This document shows, piece by piece, positions 4,476 through 31,422 of a stretch of 35,404 nt of DNA. Below the pieces are notes generated by a model that saw only the letters and a program-made list of their open reading frames with translations, ran no database searches and was not told the DNA's origin. The position numbers and the translations under genes are program-made. Position 1 is the stretch's first letter, and each line of letters begins with the position of its first letter. Source of the DNA: Akkermansia muciniphila (lineage in GTDB: Bacteria > Verrucomicrobiota > Verrucomicrobiia > Verrucomicrobiales > Akkermansiaceae); contig CAMAYN010000015.1 of the NCBI GenBank assembly GCA_945862285.1, forward strand, positions 1 to 35,404, written 5' to 3'.

Positions 4476-6671
4476 TCAATTTTTCCATCCCATGTTTCGC
4501 AGTTCTTTGGCTAGGCTGCTCGCCCATTTTACATAACTAGGTGCATTGAGGTGCAATAAATCCGGCATAGTGGATTTTTCTAATACGCCATCCGATGTCA
4601 GGAATTGCGGTGCCATATCGAGCCAGAAGACCGATTTCTGATCGGCATAAGGTTTAATGATTTCATTGATTTTATCGTTAATCACACGCAGTTCATCGGT
4701 AGGCTCTGCGCCTCGTGGGAAGATGGCGTGGAGGAGAATTTTTGTATCTGGTGAGCGGTCGCGAATGAAATCGATGATCATACGAATGCCTTGCGCGGTT
4801 TCATGGGGATTTTGTTTGGCTTGTCCGGTATTGTTCGTGCCGATCATTAAGCTCACAAATTCGGGTTTGATGCCATCGAACTCGCCATTATAAAGTCGCC
4901 AGAGCACGTGCTGTGTTTGGTCGCCCGAGAATCCGAGGTTCAAGATCGGCGTGGCTGCAAAATGGGTGGCTAGTGCCGTTTTGCCATTTCCTTGCCATGC
5001 TTGGGTGATGGAGTCGCCAAGGAGGACAAGCTTTGGTTGTGGTTGATCGCCTTTACGGATCGCGGCGACATTTTTGATAATCTTGCTGTGCCGCTCTTTC
5101 CACCATCCTGCGGTAAGCCGCATGGTGGGAGTGGTGGCGGCGTTGACTTGGTATTCGCTGCGTTTTTTCTGATAGATGGTTTTGAGCTCAGCGAGGATTG
5201 CAGCGTATTCCGGAGAATCGTGCAGCGATTTCATTTCGCTGGGATCTTTTTGTAGATCGAAGAGATTCCATTGCTTGGTTGCAGGAAAATAGATGAGTTT
5301 ATGCGTTTCTGTGCGTACGCCGTCGTGTTGGGCAACGTTGTGAGTATTTTCGCCGTAGTAGGCGTAGTAAATGGCCTCGTTGTGCGGTTTCTTCTCGTCT
5401 TTGAGTGATGCGAGGAAGCTCTTACCTTGCATTTCTGGAGTGGCTTGGTTACCAATCATCTCTAAAAGGGTGGGTGCGTAGTCGATGTTTTGTATCAGTG
5501 CCTTCGGTCTTGCGCCTGGCTTGATGACTTCTGGCCAACGAATGATAAAGGGCATGCTGAGGGACTCTTCAAACATCCAGCGTTTGTCGTACCATCCATG
5601 CTCGCCTAGGTAAAAGCCTTGATCAGAAGAGTAAATGACGACCGTGTTTTTCGCTAATCCCGATGTTTCTAAGTATTCGAGCAGCCTACCTACAGATTCA
5701 TCTACTGCGCGAATGGTGCGAAGATAGTCTTTGATGTATCGTTGATATTTCCAACGAGTGATTTCTTTCGCATCGAGTTCTCCTGCTTGCATTTTTGCAA
5801 TAAACGCCTGGTTCTCTGGCTCTCTTGTTGCATCCCATTCCTGCTTTTGTTCCGTGGTCATGCGTTGGTATTCATGGTTCATGTCCATATCACTGAAGTA
5901 TTTTGGAAAAAGATTTTTTCCATGAAATTTCATATCGTGCGACCAAGTTAAATCGTTCTCGATCGACATTGCTTGTTTTTTTAGCGAAATGTCGCGATTG
6001 GAGTAATCGTCAAATAAAGAATCTGGTTCGGGAATGGTGACATCCGAAAATAATTTGACATGGCGCAAGGCGGGAGACCAGTTCCGGTGGGGTGCTTTAT
6101 GCTGGCACATGAGGAAAAATGGCTTGCTGGTATCGCGTCGGCTTTTTAGCCAATCGAGCGACATATCTGTAATGAGATCGGTGCAGTAGCCGCTTAATTT
6201 TTTTTGGCCACTTTTTTCGATAAAGGCGGGATTGTAGTAGCTTCCTTGTCCTGGAAGTATGCACCAGTGATCGAAGCCTTGTGGTTCTGAGACGAGATGC
6301 CATTTGCCGATGATGGCGGTTTGATAGCCGGAAGATTGTAATATCTTGGGCAGTGTTTGTTGGTGTCCGTCAAAGGTATCGAAATCATTGCTGAGGTAGC
6401 CATTCATGTGTGAGTGCTTGCCAGTGATGATGCAGGCGCGTGATGGCCCACAAATGGAGTTTGCACAGAAGGAATTCCGAAACAAGGCGCCTTCATTGGC
6501 GAGTCGGTCGATATGGGGTGTGGGTGCAATGTCTTTCAACGGTCCGCCATAGGCTGAAATCGCTTTAATGGCATGGTCATCAGAAAAGATGAACAGCACA
6601 TTCGGAGGCGTGGCATTTTGTGCATGGGCGCATTGCAACAACACGAAGCAAACCGAAAAAATGTATTTCAT
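4476..6671 (-). CDS. Sulfatase fused to a C-terminal SGNH/GDSL hydrolase domain, secreted
   Basis: Signal peptide; sulfatase motifs NVLFIFSDDH and CGPSRACIITGKH (formylglycine-type C-x-P-S-R); C-terminal VLLGDSITQAW...IGTNNTG and DLLHLN SGNH blocks. Confidence 0.88.
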   Translation of the reverse strand: MKYIFSVCFVLLQCAHAQNATPPNVLFIFSDDHAIKAISAYGGPLKDIAPTPHIDRLANEGALFRNSFCANSICGPSRACIITGKHSHMNGYLSNDFDTFDGHQQTLPKILQSSGYQTAIIGKWHLVSEPQGFDHWCILPGQGSYYNPAFIEKSGQKKLSGYCTDLITDMSLDWLKSRRDTSKPFFLMCQHKAPHRNWSPALRHVKLFSDVTIPEPDSLFDDYSNRDISLKKQAMSIENDLTWSHDMKFHGKNLFPKYFSDMDMNHEYQRMTTEQKQEWDATREPENQAFIAKMQAGELDAKEITRWKYQRYIKDYLRTIRAVDESVGRLLEYLETSGLAKNTVVIYSSDQGFYLGEHGWYDKRWMFEESLSMPFIIRWPEVIKPGARPKALIQNIDYAPTLLEMIGNQATPEMQGKSFLASLKDEKKPHNEAIYYAYYGENTHNVAQHDGVRTETHKLIYFPATKQWNLFDLQKDPSEMKSLHDSPEYAAILAELKTIYQKKRSEYQVNAATTPTMRLTAGWWKERHSKIIKNVAAIRKGDQPQPKLVLLGDSITQAWQGNGKTALATHFAATPILNLGFSGDQTQHVLWRLYNGEFDGIKPEFVSLMIGTNNTGQAKQNPHETAQGIRMIIDFIRDRSPDTKILLHAIFPRGAEPTDELRVINDKINEIIKPYADQKSVFWLDMAPQFLTSDGVLEKSTMPDLLHLNAPSYVKWASSLAKELRNMGWKN

Positions 6672-20353: not shown

Positions 20354-20372
20354 TGTTACGAAATTGTCACAA
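20354..20372 (+). promoter_or_regulatory. Motif site A, TGTTACGAAATTGTCACAA, upstream of the 571-aa gene
   Basis: 17-mer TTACGAAATTGTCACAA (20356-20372) recurs exactly on the opposite strand at 23959-23975. Confidence 0.6.
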
Positions 20373-20409
20373 TCTAACAAGTGGCAAGCATGGGCGCGGT
20401 CTGTATTAG

Positions 20410-22125
20410 GTGAACCCTGCTGTGGAACTATTTCTCATCGACGCTATTGGCCCGTTTTTTCGCGGGCATACTGGAAAACGGATTAACTGGTCGAAAATCC
20501 CATTCGTCATGCTCGACGAATCTCCGCCAACGTGGGATCGGATTCGAGCGGATGTGTGGAAGTTTTGTAAAGAATCTTCTGCACTTGGCTACAATGCCGT
20601 GACTCTGGATGACGTTGCGCATTTGTATCATCACCCACTTCATGAAGAGGAGTTGCGCCTCCGTATCGCCTTCCTGCGCGATCAATTTCGACAAATTTTC
20701 CGCATCGTTATCGAAAGCAAAATGCAAGTCTTTCTGACGGTGGATGCCGTGCCCATGACTGCGGCATTGGAACGTCACTTTTGCTATGATCGCGAGGCGA
20801 TAGATCGGTATTTCCAAAACATGATCGCTAGCGTGCTGGATGATTTTCCTGAAATTGCGGGCATTATTTTACGCATCGGTGAGAGCGACGCGCGGGATGT
20901 GAAAGATCCACTAAAATCGCATTTGCACATTAAATCGGCAGCGCACGCGAATGAGGTCTTGCACCTGCTGCTTCCCGAATTTGTTGCGAGAGAACGTACG
21001 TTGATTTTTCGTACATGGACAGTTGGGGCTTATGGCATAGGCGACCTGATCTGGCATCGCGATACGATTTCTAGAGCATTAGCTGGACTCGGCGGGGAGC
21101 ATTTCATCGTCAGTATGAAACATGGAGAAAGTGATTTTTTCCGCTATCTACCTTTGAATAAAGCATTTTTCCACGTGCCGCAGAAAAAGATCATCGAACT
21201 CCAAGCAAGGCGCGAATACGAAGGCGCAGGCGAGTATCCGTCGTTCATCCTCAAGGATTGCCTCGCCTTTCACACACAACTTGCCACGATTAAAAATATG
21301 GTAGGCATGTCGGTATGGTGCCAGACTGGCGGTTGGCATCGCTTTAAAAGGCTGGCATTTTTGCAGCAAGATGAATCGGATCGCTGGATCCGCGCCAATG
21401 TTCTTGCTGCCATTCGCATTTTCCGCTATGGCGATAGTCGCGATGAATTCCTACAACATTGGATGCCGCAGCATGCGAAGGAAGCAGGGCAATTTATCGA
21501 TTCCTGCGATCACCTCATCGAGCAAGGCTTGTACATTAAAAGTTATGCACGACAGAAAAATTTCTTCCGCCGACTGCGCTTACCGCCGCTACTCCACACC
21601 TACTGGGATTCCGTCTATGTTCATCCGTTTCTGCGGGTATTTAAGCAGCAGTTGATCTGCGATTATGAATCCGAACTCGCCGCAGACAGCCAACTGATGA
21701 GCGAATTTGCAAAACTGAAAGCCAACTGCCAGGCGTGGGGATGGCCCGCAGATGACATCGAGCACATGGAGGATTTATGGCGCATTCTCTTGCTGGTACG
21801 CGCTTATTATTTCAGTCCCGATAGCGATAAAGCATTATCGATGGTACGCGATGCGAAAAAGGCTTACAAAAAAAGATGGCCTGCTGCACAACGTACACGT
21901 TACCGCATTAAAACCAATTTCCCCCGCCAAGCTCTGTCTCCGAAGCTAGTAAAATGGTGCTCGAAAATTTTCCTCCGTGGAAAGCGCGGCTACCGGATTT
22001 TTGATCAAATCGTCACCATCCACGGCCTAGCGATTCTTTTCAAGGCGACCTCTGCCAACTCCCGTAAGGCATTGCCCAAAGCTCTGCGCAAACTTGCCAT
22101 GGGTATCGATACCCTATTTCGTTAG
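20410..22125 (+). CDS. Hypothetical TIM-barrel/glycoside-hydrolase-like protein
   Basis: 571 aa; alternating strand/helix segments (YNAVTLDDVAHLYHHP, KMQVFLTVDAVPMTA, EIAGIILRIGESDARD, LIFRTWTVGAYGIGD) resemble GH TIM barrels. GTG start. Confidence 0.7.
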   Translation: MNPAVELFLIDAIGPFFRGHTGKRINWSKIPFVMLDESPPTWDRIRADVWKFCKESSALGYNAVTLDDVAHLYHHPLHEEELRLRIAFLRDQFRQIFRIVIESKMQVFLTVDAVPMTAALERHFCYDREAIDRYFQNMIASVLDDFPEIAGIILRIGESDARDVKDPLKSHLHIKSAAHANEVLHLLLPEFVARERTLIFRTWTVGAYGIGDLIWHRDTISRALAGLGGEHFIVSMKHGESDFFRYLPLNKAFFHVPQKKIIELQARREYEGAGEYPSFILKDCLAFHTQLATIKNMVGMSVWCQTGGWHRFKRLAFLQQDESDRWIRANVLAAIRIFRYGDSRDEFLQHWMPQHAKEAGQFIDSCDHLIEQGLYIKSYARQKNFFRRLRLPPLLHTYWDSVYVHPFLRVFKQQLICDYESELAADSQLMSEFAKLKANCQAWGWPADDIEHMEDLWRILLLVRAYYFSPDSDKALSMVRDAKKAYKKRWPAAQRTRYRIKTNFPRQALSPKLVKWCSKIFLRGKRGYRIFDQIVTIHGLAILFKATSANSRKALPKALRKLAMGIDTLFR

Positions 22126-22128
22126 ATA

Positions 22129-22941
22129 TCATAGCGGATCAACGAGTTGTCGTGCCGCTGCCGCAAGGCTGGCGGCATCGCCGTATGCTTCTGCCGGAAT
22201 AACGCCGCGGAGAATCATACGATGCGTCGTATTGCATGCTGCGGTAAATGTCCTACCTAACAGAAACGTCCGTACCAAAGGATGCAAGGACAGGAAATAC
22301 TCCATCGTCCGCTGATGATGGGCATCGATTCGTAAACAAGCCACTGGCACACGGCAACGCAGAGCGATTTCGAAAACCGACAACATCCACGCACCGTCCC
22401 TCACCACGCCGTCGTCTTGCATCCACGAAATCGTGCCAGCGGGAAATGCCGCTATGCAACCACCTTGGTTCAAGTGCTGCATCGCCCGTCGTAAACTCTT
22501 CGCATTGCGTCGAGCTGCCTGTTCGCCACCATAAAGGGACAAACCAATGACGTGATTCTTAAAAGAAGGAATCGTCACCAGTGCATCGGTCGTCAGGATC
22601 AACGTATCCAATCGCTGCTCTAACAACCATTTTCCATAACTAATACCGTCCATGCAGCCCGTCGGATGATTCGCCACTACGACCAGAGGTCCACTCGGCA
22701 GAGATCCATCGCCCACGACGTTGAGATGACTTAGCTCAGCGATTCCGATGAAGGGATTCGCTGCATCAGGATTCAGCTCGTGTGCCTTTGCTGTAATCTT
22801 TCCCCCTTTGTCAAAAGCCGTAACCCACGCCGCGAAATTTCGCAGCCACTGCTTGAATCGGCTTTTGCCCGCTAAAAAGGGTAACGCAACGGATAGATCC
22901 GGAATGGAATCACGCCAAGAGCTATCCTTTTTGCTTCCCAT
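22129..22941 (-). CDS. olsA-like: PlsC-like 1-acyltransferase (OlsA/GlsA type)
   Basis: VVVANHPTGCMDGISYG (NHx4D-like block) and IAAFPAGTISW; start refined to MGSKKDSSWRDS, overlapping the stop of the upstream gene. Confidence 0.78.
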   Translation of the reverse strand: MGSKKDSSWRDSIPDLSVALPFLAGKSRFKQWLRNFAAWVTAFDKGGKITAKAHELNPDAANPFIGIAELSHLNVVGDGSLPSGPLVVVANHPTGCMDGISYGKWLLEQRLDTLILTTDALVTIPSFKNHVIGLSLYGGEQAARRNAKSLRRAMQHLNQGGCIAAFPAGTISWMQDDGVVRDGAWMLSVFEIALRCRVPVACLRIDAHHQRTMEYFLSLHPLVRTFLLGRTFTAACNTTHRMILRGVIPAEAYGDAASLAAAARQLVDPL

Positions 22942-23891
22942 CACGCACAATCTCGTCCCGCCGCTGCATGATACGCGCGTAAATTCTCCCAACCATCGGC
23001 ACCCAAATACCGCTTAACAGTTTGATCGGGAGCTGCGAGCAAATCCGTCACAATCAATACATCGATCGAATCACCAAAATTCGAATCAACATTAAAATCT
23101 AATACCCGAGCATTCAGTTTCAGATAGTGTTTGAGTAAAATAGGAATCCCCATCCCATCCACATCCGTTACGGTGGCATTGACCGCTTCTACCGTAGCGC
23201 ATTTGCGAAATAACTCACTCGTACCATCTTGCAGTTGATCGATTTCTTCCAGCACCGAACGAAACGGTTGATGCGCTTTCACCATCGGGCTCCAGTTGTC
23301 ATGCATGCGGTCTTGACGTAAGAATTCCACCATCAAGCTTCGGCTCAGATGCGAATAATCATTACTGATACTCACCGGGCCAAACAACAAGCGATGTTGT
23401 GGATTTTTACTGACAAATGCTCCGATTCCTTTCCATAACAAAGACAAAACAAAAGGATGCCCCTGATACTCTGGAACTACAAAAGAACGCCCTAGTTCAA
23501 TTCCTTCATTTAACAAATCGAGAAAATCGCTAGAAAAACCAAATAGTGTGCTTGTGTAAATCCCCTGGTCGCCCGCTGTGGCACGGATTGTCCCCACAAC
23601 TCCGATCCGATAGCCGCCGACGATTTTTTTCGCTTCGTCATCCCACAAAAAGAGTTGTAGATAGGTATCGTCGAAGGAATCCATGTCCATGGATTTACCC
23701 GTGCCTTCACCAATACAGCGGAATGTAATTTCCCGCTGAATGGCAATCTCGCGCATAATGTTGGGAATTTCTTTCGATGAACATAGGTAGGTAGAAAATT
23801 GATTATGCTGATGCAGTCGCTTGTCCGCAGGTAACTGCGCAAGCTCTCTCGCTAGAGAATCAACGTGGACGGATGTAGCTATCGTTTCCAT
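22941..23891 (-). CDS. olsB-like: GNAT-like N-acyltransferase for aminolipid synthesis (OlsB/GlsB type)
   Basis: VGGYRIGVVGTI...GIELGRSFVVPEYQGHPFVLSLLWKGIGAFVSKNPQHRLLFGPVSISNDYSHLSRSLMVEFLRQ matches Acetyltransf_5 (PF13444)-type proteins; coupled to the PlsC gene. Confidence 0.8.
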   Translation of the reverse strand: METIATSVHVDSLARELAQLPADKRLHQHNQFSTYLCSSKEIPNIMREIAIQREITFRCIGEGTGKSMDMDSFDDTYLQLFLWDDEAKKIVGGYRIGVVGTIRATAGDQGIYTSTLFGFSSDFLDLLNEGIELGRSFVVPEYQGHPFVLSLLWKGIGAFVSKNPQHRLLFGPVSISNDYSHLSRSLMVEFLRQDRMHDNWSPMVKAHQPFRSVLEEIDQLQDGTSELFRKCATVEAVNATVTDVDGMGIPILLKHYLKLNARVLDFNVDSNFGDSIDVLIVTDLLAAPDQTVKRYLGADGWENLRAYHAAAGRDCA

Positions 23892-23958
23892 AATTTTGGG
23901 ATAAATTGGTTCGCAGGAGTCCTTGTCGAAGAATCATTGGGTTTTTGCCAGACCTGCT

Positions 23959-23975
23959 TTGTGACAATTTCGTAA
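23959..23975 (-). promoter_or_regulatory. Motif site B, TTACGAAATTGTCACAA on the minus strand, upstream of the olsB-like gene
   Basis: Plus-strand TTGTGACAATTTCGTAA is the exact reverse complement of site A's 17-mer; same orientation relative to its downstream gene as site A. Confidence 0.6.
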
Positions 23976-24015
23976 GATTGGCAAGTAAAAGATTCCTCCG
24001 ACAAAATCGCAGATC

Positions 24016-24039
24016 TTGTGTGACGAACGTGTCACACAA
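24016..24039 (+). promoter_or_regulatory. Motif site C, TTGTGTGAC-GAACGT-GTCACACAA, upstream of the giant phosphoesterase gene
   Basis: Perfect 9-bp inverted repeat with 6-bp spacer; contains TGTGACGAACGTGTCACA, aligning with sites A and B. Confidence 0.65.
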
Positions 24040-24099
24040 AACTTCTCTGCCATCGTCAGTCTGTAGATATGGTTGCGTTGCAGCCAACTGCGAAATACA

Positions 24100-27000
24100 A
24101 TGAAACGAAAACAATTCCATATACTTGCCCTACTATCTATGCTGGCGCCATCCGCCTATGCATTGTCGCCCGGCGATGTAGCCATCATCGGGTATAATAC
24201 GTCTGGTTCGCCAGATTCATTTACGATCGTAACAATGACTGAGCTTGCTGCTGGCACGAGCTTTTTTATCAACGATAACGAAATCGCCACTGATGGCGGT
24301 GGATCGTTCACCGACCTGAATGAAGGGGAGGCATCATTCACTGTCAAAGCCGGCCAAACCATTCCAGCAGGCACCGTCATCACACTCCCATGGGGTGGTG
24401 CTGCGGTTTCCACGTCAACCTATGACTACAGTACAACTTCAGGTTTTGGCCTCGGCAACAACAACGAGGAAATCCATATCTATGAAGCCAGTTTGATCAC
24501 TTCTACAACGCCGACTACCTTCCTATTCAGCGCAAAGATCGGCAGTAGCCCAAGCTCACGTCCCTCAGGTTTGACAGCGGGTACTACATTTATTTCGCCA
24601 ACAGGTACAGCATCGCGCTACAAAATCGCTGGAGCCACGTATTCGGGCACTCCGAGCGAACTACTCACCGCCATCGGCGACACCGCGACTAACTGGGAAG
24701 CAGTTGCACCAGCAGCCACGACGGATTGGACATTTTCTGTTACCGGCGGCGGCGGTCCCACAAATACCCTCACGCTCTCCGCGTCTCCAAGCACTTTTTT
24801 GGAAAATGCGACCAATCCAGCCTCTGTTGGTACTGTCACTCGCTCGGAAGTAACGGGCAGTGATCTGGTTGTAACCCTTTCCTCGTCTGATGTCACCGAA
24901 GTCACAGTGCCTGCTACCGTGACAATTTTGGCCAATCAGGCTTCCGCCACCTTCGATGTTGCGGCGGTGAATGACGACATTCCAGATGGTAATCAAATCG
25001 TCAATCTGACTGCTACCGCATCATCCTCTTCCACGGGCAACTTCAATGTCACAGTGCAAGATGATGGCGATACACTACCTCCTACTGCTTTGCAAACAGG
25101 TGACATCGCTTTCACCTCTTTCAACGCCGACCGCGATGCCATCGCTTTCGTGGCACTAGATGCCATCCCCGCTGGTGAAGTGATCTACTTCAACGACAAC
25201 GAATGGAACGGCAGTGCCATCGGTGCGGGCGGTGCTTTCAACACTGGCGAAGGTGTCGTAACCTGGACAGCCCCCGCTGGCGGAGTTGCCGCAGGAACTG
25301 TCGTAGTGATTGATAACTACGATGTATCTACTACGATTTCTGCCTCTGTAGGCACCGTTACTGGTTCATCAGGTCTCAGTGCCACAGAAGAATCCATTTA
25401 CGCCTATCAAGGACTATCTTCCAGTCAACCTACCACGTTTCTTGCTCTCGTCGCCAACCACGCCGCAGATAGCATCGCCAACACGGGCCTGACCTCAGGC
25501 ACCACGGCAATCTACCTTACGAGCAGTGCTGACTTTGCTGACTATGCAGGCGCACGCTTTGGTCAAGCAAGCTTTGCCGATTATCTGCCCATCATTGGTA
25601 ATATCACCAACTGGACGATTAACGTTGACGGTGCTGGTGTAGATGTTGTGCCAAGTGCAACCCCATTCATCACTGGCACTCCTGCTGTTACCGTTGGCAT
25701 TGCATCCACCGTTTCTGTGACAGAAGGCAACTCTGGTTCTGTGCAACTCAACTTCCCTGTCACACGCTCGATTGACGCGACGGCATTTTCTATCGATTAC
25801 GCCATCACTGGCGGCACGGCCACATCAGGCACTGACTTCACACCACTCGCCAGCGGCACACTCACTTTCCCCGCCAATAGTGGACCACTCATGCAAAACA
25901 TCAGCGTGGAAATCCTCGGCGATGAAATCATCGAGTCAAATGAGACGATCATCATCACACTTAGCAACTTGGTGCAAACCACGGGCACAACGACCCTGAC
26001 TACGGCGGTCAGCACTGGAACAATCACGAACGATGATTCTGTCCCCAACGTGTTTCCCGCAAGCAACAGTATTGCCACTTCGGTAAAAGGAAATATCACC
26101 CTCGCAGGTGCAGAAATCCCCGCCTTCGATCCCATTTCCAAGCGCGCTTTCGCCGCCTCCGGCACCGGTATTCAAGTGGTCGATCTCACGAACCCTGCTT
26201 CGCCAGTTTTTATCTCTACCATCCAGCCCTCCACCCTTATTTCGGGATTGGTAGGTGACGACATCTCTTCCGTTGCTGTTCGCAAAGGTTCTGGCAGCAC
26301 CCCTAGCATCCTTGCAGCATCCATCATTAACTCGCCCAAGACCACCAACGGCCACGTGGTTTTCGTCAACGCCGCCACGGGTGCATTGCTCGGCACCGCT
26401 ACCGTTGGCTCCGTTCCGGATCACATCGCCTTCACGCCCGATGGCACCAAGCTCCTCGTGTGTAACGAAGGGGAACTCGATGGCAGCAACGCTAACATCG
26501 CCACCGAAAACATTCCTGGCACCGTGAGCATCATCAATATCACGAATGTTGCCGCACCCACCGTGCAAACCGCAGGTTTTGCCAGTTTCAATGCTCAAGC
26601 CGCCGCGCTCAAAGCCGCTGGCGTCCGTATCTTCGAAGGCGGAATTCCCGAGTTCGATTTCGAGCCTGAATACCTCGCCATTTCTCCCGACGGAACCAAG
26701 GCCATGGTCACTCTGCAAGAAGCCAATGCCGTCGCCATCCTCGACATCGCATCTGCGACATTTACTTCCGTCGTTCCTCTCGGTGAGAAAAATTTCATCA
26801 ACGGCAGACACGACTTCAGTGACCGCGATGCCGCCGGCGGCAGTTCTGGCCTCGTTAACCCTACCACGGGTAATCCAGTCTTCGGCCTCTACATGCCCGA
26901 TGCCATTGCTTCCTACTCCGTTGGTGGTCAAACCTACTACATCACCGCTAACGAAGGCGATGATCGCAATGACTTCATCGAGCCTAACGAAACCACAACT

Positions 27001-30000
27001 GTCTCTGCTGCTGGTTATGTTCTCGATCCTACAGTATTCCCGGATGCCGCTACCCTGAAAACAAATCCTCGTCTCGGTCGCTTGGTGGTCTCAAACGCAC
27101 CAGGTCTGCGCGGTGATATTGATAACGATGGTGACATTGATCGTATCCTCAGCTACGGCGGACGTTCCTTCTCCATTCTCGACGCCAATGGCGCACAAGT
27201 CTTCGACAGCGGCGATATGATCGAAATGATTGTCGCCTCTCAGTTTCCTGCACTGTTAGATGACACTCGCAGTGACAACAAAGGTCCCGAGCCTGAGGGC
27301 GTTACCGTTGCGAAAATCGGCGCCCGCACCTTTGCCTTCATCGGCCTTGAGCGCTCGCACATGACGCTCGCCTTCGATGTGACGAATCCACTCGCCCCTA
27401 CCTATGCCACCGCGTTCCAACGCACTGGCGATTTAAATCCAGAAGGCATGGTCGTCGTCGAAGCTGCCGATAGCCCCTCCGGCAAGCCACTGCTCATCGT
27501 AGCCAACGAAGTTTCAAATACACTTACTGTGTTTGAAATCAATCAACCCGTTGATTTCAAACTCCAGTTGCTCCATCTCGCCGATGCTGAAGCAGGTCTC
27601 CTTGCCTCACAAACGGCTCCAAACCTAGCCGCGCTCGTGGATGCCTTTGACGGCACTTACGCTAACACCCTCATCCTCGCTGGTGGTGACAACTTCATCC
27701 CTGGTCCATTTATCGCAGGTGGAACAGATATCTCCGTGCGTGACGAACTCAACACGGTCACAGGTTCCACCATGAGCCTCACATCACCCACGTTCAATCA
27801 CCCGACTGCCGCTGTGGACATCGCTATTCACAACCTCATCGGTGTTGAGGCATCCACCGTCGGCAACCACGAGTTCGACCTTGGCACCCGCGTTTTCCGC
27901 GATGCGATTCAAGCCGGTAGCGGCTGGGTAGGAGCAAATTTCCCCTACCTCTCCGCGAACTTGGACTTCTCTGGTGACTCCGACATATCAGGCCGCTTCA
28001 CCAACACCCTAAGTGGCAACTCCACGTCATTGATTGCTGAAGCCAGCACCCTCAAGGGACGCATCGCCCCCTCCGCCGTCGTCACCAAAGGTGGAGAAAA
28101 AATCGGCCTCGTCGCCGCCACCACCCAGATACTTGAGAGCATCTCCTCCACTGGTGGTGTGGAAGTCATCGGTTTCTCTGGTGACGGCTCCGAGACAAAC
28201 AACATGACGCTCCTCGCCTCACAACTCCAGCCCGCCATTGATGAGCTGAAGTCTGAAGGTGTAGATAAAATCATCCTCATGGCGCACCTCCAGCAGATTA
28301 CCCTCGAGCAACAACTCGCACCACTCCTCAATGGCGTGGACATCATCCTTGCCGCCGGGTCTAACACCCGCCTCGGCGATTCGAATGACGTAGCCGCAGC
28401 CTTCACTGGCCATACCGCTGACTTCGCTGCCAACTACCCCATCTACACCGCTGGTGCTGATGGCTTGCCCACCGTCATCGTCAATACCGACAACGAGTTC
28501 ACCTACCTCGGTCGCCTTGTTGCGGACTTCGATGCCGACGGTGTCTTGATCGTGCCGAACCTAATGGCGAACATCGTGGAAAACGGTGCCTATGCCGCCA
28601 CCGATGCCAATGTTGCCGCCGCATGGAATACTACCGTAGGCAACCTGCCGACGACAGCCTTCGCCGCTGGCACCAAAGGCGCGCAAGTGAAATTGCTCAC
28701 TGATGCCGTGCAGGCGGTGATTAATGCCAAAGACGGCGACATCCGTGGCTACACCGATGTCTATCTCGAAGGCGAGCGCAATATCATTCGCAACCAATCT
28801 ACCAACCTTGGTGACATCACTGCAGATTCGCTCATCGCTGCCGCGAAACCATCGCTTCCTTCTGTTACACACATCGCCGCATTCAAAAACGGCGGTGGCA
28901 TTCGCTCCTCTATCGGAGCGGTGGAAGTTGGCAACGGACTCAAAACACCACCGATCGCCAACCCTAGCGCCAATAAACCAGCGGGAGCCATCTCTCTTCT
29001 GGATATCGAAAACTCCCTGCGTTTCAACAACGGCATCATGGTCTGCGAGACTACACCTACGGGTCTCAAAAATATCATCGAGCACGGCGTATTCAACGCA
29101 GGCACCAGCAACGGACGTTTCCCACAGATCGGCGGCATCCGCTTCTCCTACGATCCCTCCCTCAGCCCAGGAGCACGTGTCCTCAGCCTTGTGTTAGTCG
29201 ATGAAAACGACAACATCACGGGCCGCGTCGTTTCGAATGGAGTGATTCGCTCGGACGCACCTGCGACCATCACTATCGTCACTATGAACTTCATTGCCAA
29301 TGGCGGTGATAGCTATCCATTCAAAGCCAATGCGGACAATTTCCGCTACGTGCTAAACAATGGAACACTCTCCTCCGTGGTGGACGAGTCACTCGATTTC
29401 ACAAATGCGGCAAACGTGCCCTCGAATATCCTTGGCGAGCAACTTGCCCTATCCAACTACCTGCAAGTCCGCTACGCTACACCAGCAAGTGCCTTTGACA
29501 TTGCTGATACGACTCCGGCCTTTGACATCCGCATCCAAAGCACCGCCGTCCGCAGCGATGCCGTGCTCGCTGGCCCCGCCACCTTTGGCGCATGGCTCGC
29601 CCTCAACGGCTACACTTCCACCGGTATTGATACTGATACCGATAACGATGGCGTGATCGATAGTCTTGAGTTTTTCTTCAATCAAAACCCCAACAATGGT
29701 GCTGATCAAGAAAACTTACCGAAGCTCGTCCCTAACGGAAATGCTTTAGCGATGCAACTCGCCTACAACAACCAGACTCCCCTGAGTGGTGCGCTTCAAG
29801 TATCCAGCGATCTCACTACATGGGACAATGGATTCTTAGGAGTTGACTTCTCTGTGGCATCGAGCGTTGTCAATGGCGATGAAACAACCGTTAACTACGC
29901 ACTCCTGGGCAGCGGACCATCCGCCGCTGGCACATCAGCGACCTACGCCACGCCAAACAGTGCCGATCCCGCAGGTGCCTCTCTCGGTGGTGTCCGCGTC

Positions 30001-31422
30001 ATCAATCACGGCCTCGTTGGTGTTGGTCGCCTCAGCGGCAATGCCCTCGACCAATTCGGTGAAACACAAGGCGCCGCCTCTGGCCTGTTCATCTCCAACT
30101 GGGCATGGAACGGCAACCAGTTCACTGGCACATTCAACGTGCTTCCTGACCGTGGCTACAACGCAGGCACGATCTTCTCGAACTACGCCGCCCGTCTCCA
30201 CGATGTGAACTTCACCTTCTCCCCTTACTACGGCACTGCGCCCGTCGCCCAAGGTCAGATCGTCCCCACCTACGCCAGTTCCACCAAGTTCACTTACATG
30301 GACGGTGAGAAAATTAAATTTACTACTGGACTTGATGTGACATCCACTGGCTCGCTCTTCGGTGAATCCGTTGGGATTGCCACGGCAGCGAATGGCCCAG
30401 GCGGCACGCAAGAAAGCCTACTTAGCTTCGATGCCGAAGCTGTGTATCTCTTCAGCGATGGCTCCGGCTACGTCTCCGATGAATACGGCACCTACATCGC
30501 CCGCTTCAACTCGGCAAAACGCATCACTGGCATCACTCAGCTCCCTGAGTCCGCCCGTCCGCACAACCCCGCTGGCACATCGAATTTCAGTTCCACTACC
30601 ACACCAGTCAGTGGTCGTCGTCAGAACCAAGGTCTCGAAGGTATGTCCGTCACTCCCGATGGCACCCGCCTCTTCGCCGTCATGCAAAGTGCCCTCGTGC
30701 AAGACACCAACGGTGCCAACCAACAAACGCGCAATAATACCCGCCTCTTCGTTTACGATGTCGCTGGAGTCAATCGCGAGAACCCCGTGTTGATTGGTCA
30801 ATACGTCGTCAAACTGCCACAGTTCCAGGCCACTGGTGCTGGCACAGCCGTCAACCGCACCGCCGCACAATCGGAAATCATTGCTCTCAACGGCACATCC
30901 TTCCTGATGCTGCCCCGTGATGGTAACGGCCTCGGCACTGGCACTACCGCGCCCATCGTCTTCAAGTCCGTGCAGCTTGTCGATTTCGCCTCCGCGACCA
31001 ACATTCTTGGCATGTATGATGCCGAAGGCGCTGCCGTCAGCCCTGCAGGCGTTCTTCGTCCAGAAGTAAAAGCCGCCGCTTCCATGGAAGTGATCAACAT
31101 GCTTGAGCCAACAGACCTTGCGAAGTTTGGATTGAATAAAAACACCAATCCCTCCAACGCAAATACTCTGAACGAGAAAATGGAAGGCATGGCACTCGTG
31201 CCAGACCTCTCCACTCCCGCCGCTAACGACTTCTTCCTCTTCATCGCCAACGATAACGACTTCCAGTCGTCCGATGTGAAGATGATCGATGCCAGCGGCG
31301 CACTCGTCAGCTACGGCGACGGTCGCCTCAACGCCGGCCTCACCAACGACGCGATGTTCTACGCCTACCGCATCACGATTGACGCTAGCGGCAAGCGCTT
31401 CTTCCGCTTTGAAGTGAAATAA
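24100..31422 (+). CDS. Giant secreted multidomain phosphoesterase: two N-terminal beta modules, Calx-beta, choice-of-anchor-I propeller, 5'-nucleotidase/metallophosphatase, phytase-like esterase domain
   Basis: Start refined to MKRKQFHILALLSMLAPSAYA; Calx-beta VTEGNSGSVQLNFPV...GTITNDDS; LQLLHLADAEAG...GDNFIPG...GNHEFD and the 5'-nucleotidase C-terminal block FKNGGGIRSSIG; DTDNDGVIDSLEFFFNQNPN; phytase-like GVGRLSGNALDQFGETQGAASGL and NQGLEGMSVTPDG. Confidence 0.85.
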   Translation: MKRKQFHILALLSMLAPSAYALSPGDVAIIGYNTSGSPDSFTIVTMTELAAGTSFFINDNEIATDGGGSFTDLNEGEASFTVKAGQTIPAGTVITLPWGGAAVSTSTYDYSTTSGFGLGNNNEEIHIYEASLITSTTPTTFLFSAKIGSSPSSRPSGLTAGTTFISPTGTASRYKIAGATYSGTPSELLTAIGDTATNWEAVAPAATTDWTFSVTGGGGPTNTLTLSASPSTFLENATNPASVGTVTRSEVTGSDLVVTLSSSDVTEVTVPATVTILANQASATFDVAAVNDDIPDGNQIVNLTATASSSSTGNFNVTVQDDGDTLPPTALQTGDIAFTSFNADRDAIAFVALDAIPAGEVIYFNDNEWNGSAIGAGGAFNTGEGVVTWTAPAGGVAAGTVVVIDNYDVSTTISASVGTVTGSSGLSATEESIYAYQGLSSSQPTTFLALVANHAADSIANTGLTSGTTAIYLTSSADFADYAGARFGQASFADYLPIIGNITNWTINVDGAGVDVVPSATPFITGTPAVTVGIASTVSVTEGNSGSVQLNFPVTRSIDATAFSIDYAITGGTATSGTDFTPLASGTLTFPANSGPLMQNISVEILGDEIIESNETIIITLSNLVQTTGTTTLTTAVSTGTITNDDSVPNVFPASNSIATSVKGNITLAGAEIPAFDPISKRAFAASGTGIQVVDLTNPASPVFISTIQPSTLISGLVGDDISSVAVRKGSGSTPSILAASIINSPKTTNGHVVFVNAATGALLGTATVGSVPDHIAFTPDGTKLLVCNEGELDGSNANIATENIPGTVSIINITNVAAPTVQTAGFASFNAQAAALKAAGVRIFEGGIPEFDFEPEYLAISPDGTKAMVTLQEANAVAILDIASATFTSVVPLGEKNFINGRHDFSDRDAAGGSSGLVNPTTGNPVFGLYMPDAIASYSVGGQTYYITANEGDDRNDFIEPNETTTVSAAGYVLDPTVFPDAATLKTNPRLGRLVVSNAPGLRGDIDNDGDIDRILSYGGRSFSILDANGAQVFDSGDMIEMIVASQFPALLDDTRSDNKGPEPEGVTVAKIGARTFAFIGLERSHMTLAFDVTNPLAPTYATAFQRTGDLNPEGMVVVEAADSPSGKPLLIVANEVSNTLTVFEINQPVDFKLQLLHLADAEAGLLASQTAPNLAALVDAFDGTYANTLILAGGDNFIPGPFIAGGTDISVRDELNTVTGSTMSLTSPTFNHPTAAVDIAIHNLIGVEASTVGNHEFDLGTRVFRDAIQAGSGWVGANFPYLSANLDFSGDSDISGRFTNTLSGNSTSLIAEASTLKGRIAPSAVVTKGGEKIGLVAATTQILESISSTGGVEVIGFSGDGSETNNMTLLASQLQPAIDELKSEGVDKIILMAHLQQITLEQQLAPLLNGVDIILAAGSNTRLGDSNDVAAAFTGHTADFAANYPIYTAGADGLPTVIVNTDNEFTYLGRLVADFDADGVLIVPNLMANIVENGAYAATDANVAAAWNTTVGNLPTTAFAAGTKGAQVKLLTDAVQAVINAKDGDIRGYTDVYLEGERNIIRNQSTNLGDITADSLIAAAKPSLPSVTHIAAFKNGGGIRSSIGAVEVGNGLKTPPIANPSANKPAGAISLLDIENSLRFNNGIMVCETTPTGLKNIIEHGVFNAGTSNGRFPQIGGIRFSYDPSLSPGARVLSLVLVDENDNITGRVVSNGVIRSDAPATITIVTMNFIANGGDSYPFKANADNFRYVLNNGTLSSVVDESLDFTNAANVPSNILGEQLALSNYLQVRYATPASAFDIADTTPAFDIRIQSTAVRSDAVLAGPATFGAWLALNGYTSTGIDTDTDNDGVIDSLEFFFNQNPNNGADQENLPKLVPNGNALAMQLAYNNQTPLSGALQVSSDLTTWDNGFLGVDFSVASSVVNGDETTVNYALLGSGPSAAGTSATYATPNSADPAGASLGGVRVINHGLVGVGRLSGNALDQFGETQGAASGLFISNWAWNGNQFTGTFNVLPDRGYNAGTIFSNYAARLHDVNFTFSPYYGTAPVAQGQIVPTYASSTKFTYMDGEKIKFTTGLDVTSTGSLFGESVGIATAANGPGGTQESLLSFDAEAVYLFSDGSGYVSDEYGTYIARFNSAKRITGITQLPESARPHNPAGTSNFSSTTTPVSGRRQNQGLEGMSVTPDGTRLFAVMQSALVQDTNGANQQTRNNTRLFVYDVAGVNRENPVLIGQYVVKLPQFQATGAGTAVNRTAAQSEIIALNGTSFLMLPRDGNGLGTGTTAPIVFKSVQLVDFASATNILGMYDAEGAAVSPAGVLRPEVKAAASMEVINMLEPTDLAKFGLNKNTNPSNANTLNEKMEGMALVPDLSTPAANDFFLFIANDNDFQSSDVKMIDASGALVSYGDGRLNAGLTNDAMFYAYRITIDASGKRFFRFEVK

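Follow-up and report, generated by a model that had tools for sequence, protein, structure and literature searches.

Three adjacent transcription units of an uncultured Akkermansiaceae-type Verrucomicrobiales bacterium very likely belong to its Pho (phosphate-starvation) regulon, and we place high confidence in this reading with its mechanism included. The units lie in a stretch of 35,404 nucleotides (the window), which is contig 15 of a 3.65 Mb genome that is 92% complete. They encode a TIM-barrel protein, a pair of acyltransferases and a giant 5′-nucleotidase/phytase-like protein, a gene content proposed in a sequence-only reading and upheld by Pfam and NCBIfam. The phosphate-starvation regulon suggested in the same reading proved largely right, judging from a conserved operator that the units have in common with the genome's own pho, pst, pit, phoX, btaA and plcP genes. 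Because this operator is shared with genes of phosphate sensing and uptake, phosphate shortage very probably induces the three units. What is new here is that the Pho regulon of these Verrucomicrobiales has an operator of inverted-repeat form and a putative GH67-like lipid-remodelling partner, well supported as far as the Pho-regulon reading goes; no published verrucomicrobial Pho box or regulon was found in the part of the open-access literature that was covered. The result provides a concrete conserved operator for the phosphate response in an entire order of environmentally abundant, hard-to-culture bacteria, together with a list of the genes behind it. It also offers a testable role for a protein family unnamed in Pfam and NCBIfam, namely phosphate-starvation lipid remodelling, the replacement of membrane phospholipids by lipids free of phosphate.

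Three motif copies had been claimed at the three units and described as the only full ones, and both statements were borne out. A pattern search of the window with TNTNACGAANNTGTCACA returned operators A, B and C as the only matches with 0 mismatches (Table 1), and the remaining matches have 3 mismatches each, which is the chance rate. In operator C the arms are longer and form a perfect inverted repeat of 9 bp, TTGTGTGAC-N6-GTCACACAA. In the nearest relative (L065) a site identical to operator B occupies the same place, and operator C is kept as TGTGACGAAATCTTCACA. A second conserved element, CTNGC, occupies positions +27 to +31, counted from the operator's first base, in the promoters of TIM-barrel genes, where T28 is present in 29 of 32 (L065-L115); it also occurs at L038 9691-9790 and at 24045-24055 of the window. 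Its position is where a -10 box would be, and it bears no resemblance to TATAAT.

Table 1. Operators and genes of the three units (positions in the window).
Feature	Position	Strand	Remarks
Operator A, TGTTACGAAATTGTCACA	20354-20371	+	0 mismatches to pattern TNTNACGAANNTGTCACA
GH67-like TIM-barrel gene	20410..22125	+	571 aa, no Pfam/NCBIfam family
PlsC-like acyltransferase (OlsA/GlsA/OlsF-N-like)	22129..22992	-	PF01553, E 3.5e-7
GNAT N-acyltransferase (OlsB/GlsB/OlsF-C-like)	22941..23891	-	PF13444, E 1e-18
Operator B, TCTTACGAAATTGTCACA	23960-23977	-	69 bp before GNAT gene
Operator C, TGTGACGAACGTGTCACA	24019-24036	+	0 mismatches to pattern TNTNACGAANNTGTCACA
Secreted multidomain phosphoesterase	24100..31422	+	2440 aa; Pfam, NCBIfam, sequence

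The genome-wide scan consisted of pattern searches with mismatch limits, and the reversed pattern served as control. With up to 2 mismatches to TNTNACGAANNTGTCACA, 28+21 matches were found against 11+2 for the control, and with up to one mismatch the palindrome TGTGAC-N6-GTCACA gave 20 sites against 3. Strong sites were concentrated at gene 5′ ends (18 of 21) in fetched DNA that is 91% coding; 14 of them are intergenic and 4 more fall no further than 71 bases into an open frame that is too long.

Genes of phosphate sensing and uptake are prominent behind these sites. On contig 182 a perfect TGTGACGAAATTGTCACA lies 47 bp upstream of phoU (L039), the sole PhoU gene in the genome, whose product matches TIGR02135 above the cut-off. 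It is followed by phoB and phoR, that is, by genes for a Response_reg+Trans_reg_C regulator and a HisKA/PAS kinase (PhoR/PnpS-like). In front of the sole PF12849 pstS of the genome, which is followed by two permease genes, GGTGACGAAATTGTCACT stands about 64 bp from the open frame. The sequence-only reading had staked itself on the phoU and pstS promoters, and both have the motif. It had also placed the regulator outside the window. The identity of that regulator is less firm: the best NCBIfam match of the OmpR-type protein encoded after phoU is PhoB, at 225.7 bits and below the cut-off of 296.2, which counts against the Pho-regulon reading. The motif was further found before PhoU_div-Pit and DUF4394-PhoX genes, and two sites precede the gene of a protein of the DUF3419 or BtaA family (btaA). 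On contig 134, an operator stands 38 bp upstream of a gene encoding a 655-aa GT4-metallophosphoesterase fusion (L055:975-2942), in which PF13692/PF00534 and PF00149 occur in one protein; its designation as a glycosyltransferase-PlcP fusion is based on these domains. The TGTGA...TCACA arms resemble the half-site of CRP, though with a spacing of 8 rather than 6, and one could ask whether the three sites are chance occurrences or CRP/FNR-like palindromes of an unrelated regulon (carbon, respiration). This is extremely improbable, as the best genome-wide matches are phosphate genes and the same pairing of motif and gene recurs in related genomes.

In the relatives, sites were counted with a score that is neutral to repeat orientation, as it leaves out the third base of each half-site, the position that distinguishes an inverted from a direct repeat. 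A site precedes 11/11 phoB genes, 7/8 pstS genes, 7/10 glycosyltransferase-PlcP units and 38/45 TIM-barrel genes, as well as 9/9 phoU units, where the regions scored were 1 kb long and single matches mean less. The gene btaA is also among those tracked by the motif. For the TIM-barrel genes, 27 of 33 non-redundant promoters have GTNAC-N6-GTNAC no more than 200 bp upstream, compared with 4.4% of dinucleotide shuffles, and the site usually lies 42-61 bp before the start of the match. Matches to the palindrome exceed those to the reversed control in most Akkermansiaceae genomes; for some of the order's other families the excess is less clear.

The sequence-only reading had seen in the motif a 7+4+7 direct repeat of the PhoB-box type, and this part did not hold. 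Among 78 neutrally scored sites, 54 have the G..C combination of an inverted repeat and 3 have the C..C or G..G of a direct repeat; the non-redundant TIM-barrel promoters alone gave 25 inverted against 1 direct. Based on these counts, the operator is an inverted repeat of about TGTGAC-RAWWYY-GTCACA. When the genome was searched for direct repeats, the top-ranking matches were mostly the palindromic sites themselves. The matches of 13/18, 12/18 and 12/18 to the E. coli consensus reported for the three sites are arithmetically correct, but they are at chance level in the window. Since 20 words in the window reach at least 12/18 (5 at 13 and 15 at 12), resemblance to the Pho box of E. coli is uninformative by itself, and it was dropped as evidence. 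A search with CTGTCATAWAWCTGTMAY gave no match at up to 3 mismatches.

Compared with the Pho regulon of E. coli and other Proteobacteria, the similarity lies in phoU, phoB, phoR, pstS and PhoX genes being placed under one operator, with half-sites 11 bp apart from start to start and a GTCAC half-site. In contrast to the E. coli box, CTGTCAT-N4-CTGTCAC, the arms are inverted here (TGTGAC-N6-GTCACA), and the targets include a GH67-like protein and a 2440-aa phosphoesterase. Most regulators of the OmpR/PhoB family bind direct repeats, with HP1043 among the few exceptions (PMC3960148). The palindromic form of the operator thus speaks against PhoB as the binder. The motif might mark the phosphate regulon and yet be bound by a different regulator, such as a helix-turn-helix protein that recognizes palindromes, with PhoB acting elsewhere or indirectly. 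We consider this quite unlikely: in many genomes phoB itself and phoU-phoB-phoR are preceded by the motif, the half-site distance equals that of PhoB boxes, and an unsystematic look at the loci viewed revealed no other regulator gene consistently beside the motif. How an OmpR/PhoB-family or other regulator recognizes an inverted repeat is a question that this operator raises.

With PhoB as the preferred binder, the following mechanism can be proposed. Low phosphate would be signalled through PstSCA-PhoU-PhoR and lead to phosphorylation of the OmpR-type regulator PhoB. We infer that PhoB~P would then bind TGTGAC-N6-GTCACA about 40-70 bp before start codons and activate transcription. Among the products, the giant secreted protein would release phosphate from nucleotides and further esters, a phosphorus-free aminolipid would be made by the acyltransferase pair, and the GH67-like TIM-barrel protein would work with the glycolipid branch of the glycosyltransferase-PlcP enzymes.

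The giant protein has a signal peptide, Calx-beta and choice-of-anchor I domains, a UshA-type 5′-nucleotidase at about residues 1237-1745 and an esterase-like phytase domain at 2084-2388. The 5_nucleotid_C domain (PF02872, E 8.7e-18) spans 1562-1740, and the metallophosphatase part was assigned from UshA/NadN matches at 1237-1489, each of them below its own equivalog cut-off. In 5 other genomes, homologs of the gene lie in the vicinity of the TIM-barrel gene.

The acyltransferase pair resembles the OlsF/OlsBA ornithine and GlsB/GlsA glycine lipid synthases in combining a GNAT (PF13444) with an O-acyltransferase, and the two genes are apparently co-transcribed. The PlsC-like gene probably starts at ATG 22941, overlapping the stop codon of the GNAT gene as TGATG. 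However, the pair falls far below all equivalog cut-offs. The GNAT scores 236.9 bits against the OlsF C-half (cut-off 620), 146 against GlsB (300) and 46 against OlsB (320); the PlsC-like protein scores 74.9 bits against the OlsF N-half (620) and 48.5 against GlsA (260). The earlier assignment to OlsB/OlsA therefore needs correcting to an aminolipid acyltransferase pair, and the ornithine head group is not established since the scores lie below every curated cut-off. Sequence does not separate ornithine, glycine or another head group. In relatives, clear operator sites upstream of the GNAT gene were found in the genus only, with no general link beyond it, and the presence of this gene showed no correlation with that of the TIM-barrel gene (P 0.19). 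The lack of a wide link between GNAT gene and motif is a point against the Pho-regulon reading. Since the link is not general outside the genus, Pho control of the acyltransferase pair may be a local acquisition.

The TIM-barrel protein matched no Pfam family at E <= 0.001, PF07488 included, and no NCBIfam family, and a sequence search against the PDB gave nothing (best E 0.21). Its start is probably GTG 20422 rather than 20410, because homology begins at residue 5 with the conserved MxLFLIDAIGPFFRG. Homologs were found at 55 loci in the genome collection, mostly in Akkermansiaceae and Verrucomicrobiaceae, with Luteolibacter pohnpeiensis and Haloferula rosea among the carriers and outliers in Desulfobulbaceae, Granulosicoccaceae and Kiritimatiellae. 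Genus g3, which we take to be gut Akkermansia, is without the gene. The outlier homologs share no common neighbor theme, apart from polyphosphate kinase 2 in Granulosicoccaceae, where a PPK2 gene follows the TIM-barrel homolog (L100:10266-11222).

An AlphaFold model built from a 32-sequence alignment reached a pLDDT of 86 and a pTM of 0.88. The best PDB fold match of the model is the GH67 α-glucuronidase 1mqq (E 1.5e-11), and further matches are to GH138, GH84 and GH20, with TM-scores of about 0.4-0.5. Distant paralogs in the phylum match PF07488 (Glyco_hydro_67M) with up to 22.8 bits, where the cut-off is 23.5. In comparison with the GH67 enzymes (1mqq, 1gql), however, the TM-score is only ~0.5 and the identity 10-12%, and there is no direct match to a GH67 profile. 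We regard the protein as a new GH67-like family. Many acidic residues are invariant in the alignment (D67, D68, D112, E158, D160, D242, E263, E269, E271, and E275) and no signal peptide is visible in the sequence, which suggests a cytoplasmic enzyme of the GH67-like superfamily.

The TIM-barrel gene is linked to the glycosyltransferase-PlcP genes. These genes, fused or split, adjoin it in 11 loci, and in other loci its neighbors are pst/phoU, btaA or the gene of the giant phosphoesterase. Among 57 relatives, the TIM-barrel gene is present in 29 genomes, all of which (29/29) have glycosyltransferase/PlcP genes, whereas it is present in 0/13 genomes lacking them (Fisher P 1.5e-5, a value that ignores phylogeny). 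Verrucomicrobia carry many enzymes of the GH67/GH138/GH84 type, and given its fold the protein might simply be a glycoside hydrolase of the usual glycan-degrading kind, under phosphate control only because of where its gene happens to lie. We regard this as unlikely, as no signal peptide was seen, the gene's own promoter keeps the operator across the order, and the gene is present only together with glycosyltransferase/PlcP genes, often adjoining them or pst.

A role beside the glycosyltransferase-PlcP enzymes can be viewed against the remodelling of lipids by PlcP, Agt and BtaA under phosphate deficiency, which is established in marine bacteria (PMC4796936). As in the marine PlcP-Agt/BtaA system, a GT4 glycosyltransferase and a metallophosphoesterase are here under a Pho-type operator, accompanied by BtaA-type betaine lipid synthesis. 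Unlike the marine PlcP-Agt enzymes, both are joined in one fused 655-aa protein in Akkermansiaceae, and a GH67-like partner gene accompanies them. In other Verrucomicrobiales families the glycosyltransferase and the PlcP-like phosphoesterase are encoded by two neighboring genes beside phoU or phoB (L258, L259, L241). Since glucosyl- and glucuronosyl-DAG are formed by Agt-type enzymes when phosphate is lacking (PMC8231724, PMC4796936), the simplest hypothesis is that the GH67-like protein would act on such a glycolipid or on its sugar; its substrate would probably be a glycosyl or glucuronosyl lipid, or the sugar of one. More specifically, and only tentatively, the phosphate response of Verrucomicrobiales may run via an inverted-repeat Pho operator, and their lipid remodelling may include a hitherto undescribed GH67-like enzyme of the cytoplasm. 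This enzyme would trim or transfer the sugar moiety, perhaps glucuronic acid, of glycolipids that the fused glycosyltransferase-PlcP produces during phosphate starvation.

Further predicted targets of the operator in the genome include TonB-receptor-like, lamin-tail and autotransporter-type surface proteins. On contig 46, a baeRF family 10 (eRF1-like) gene (L041:4148-5299) and an unknown gene (5429-6172) diverge from the operator-like TGTTACGAAATTGTAACA. On contig 153 (L042:6670-8155), an operator with one mismatch precedes a gene with a zinc-protease domain and, overlapping it, a gene for a RimK-like ATP-grasp ligase. On contig 110 (L049), two successive operators precede a TonB-receptor-like gene and an unknown gene of 366 aa, and this pair could possibly serve phosphate-regulated uptake across the outer membrane.
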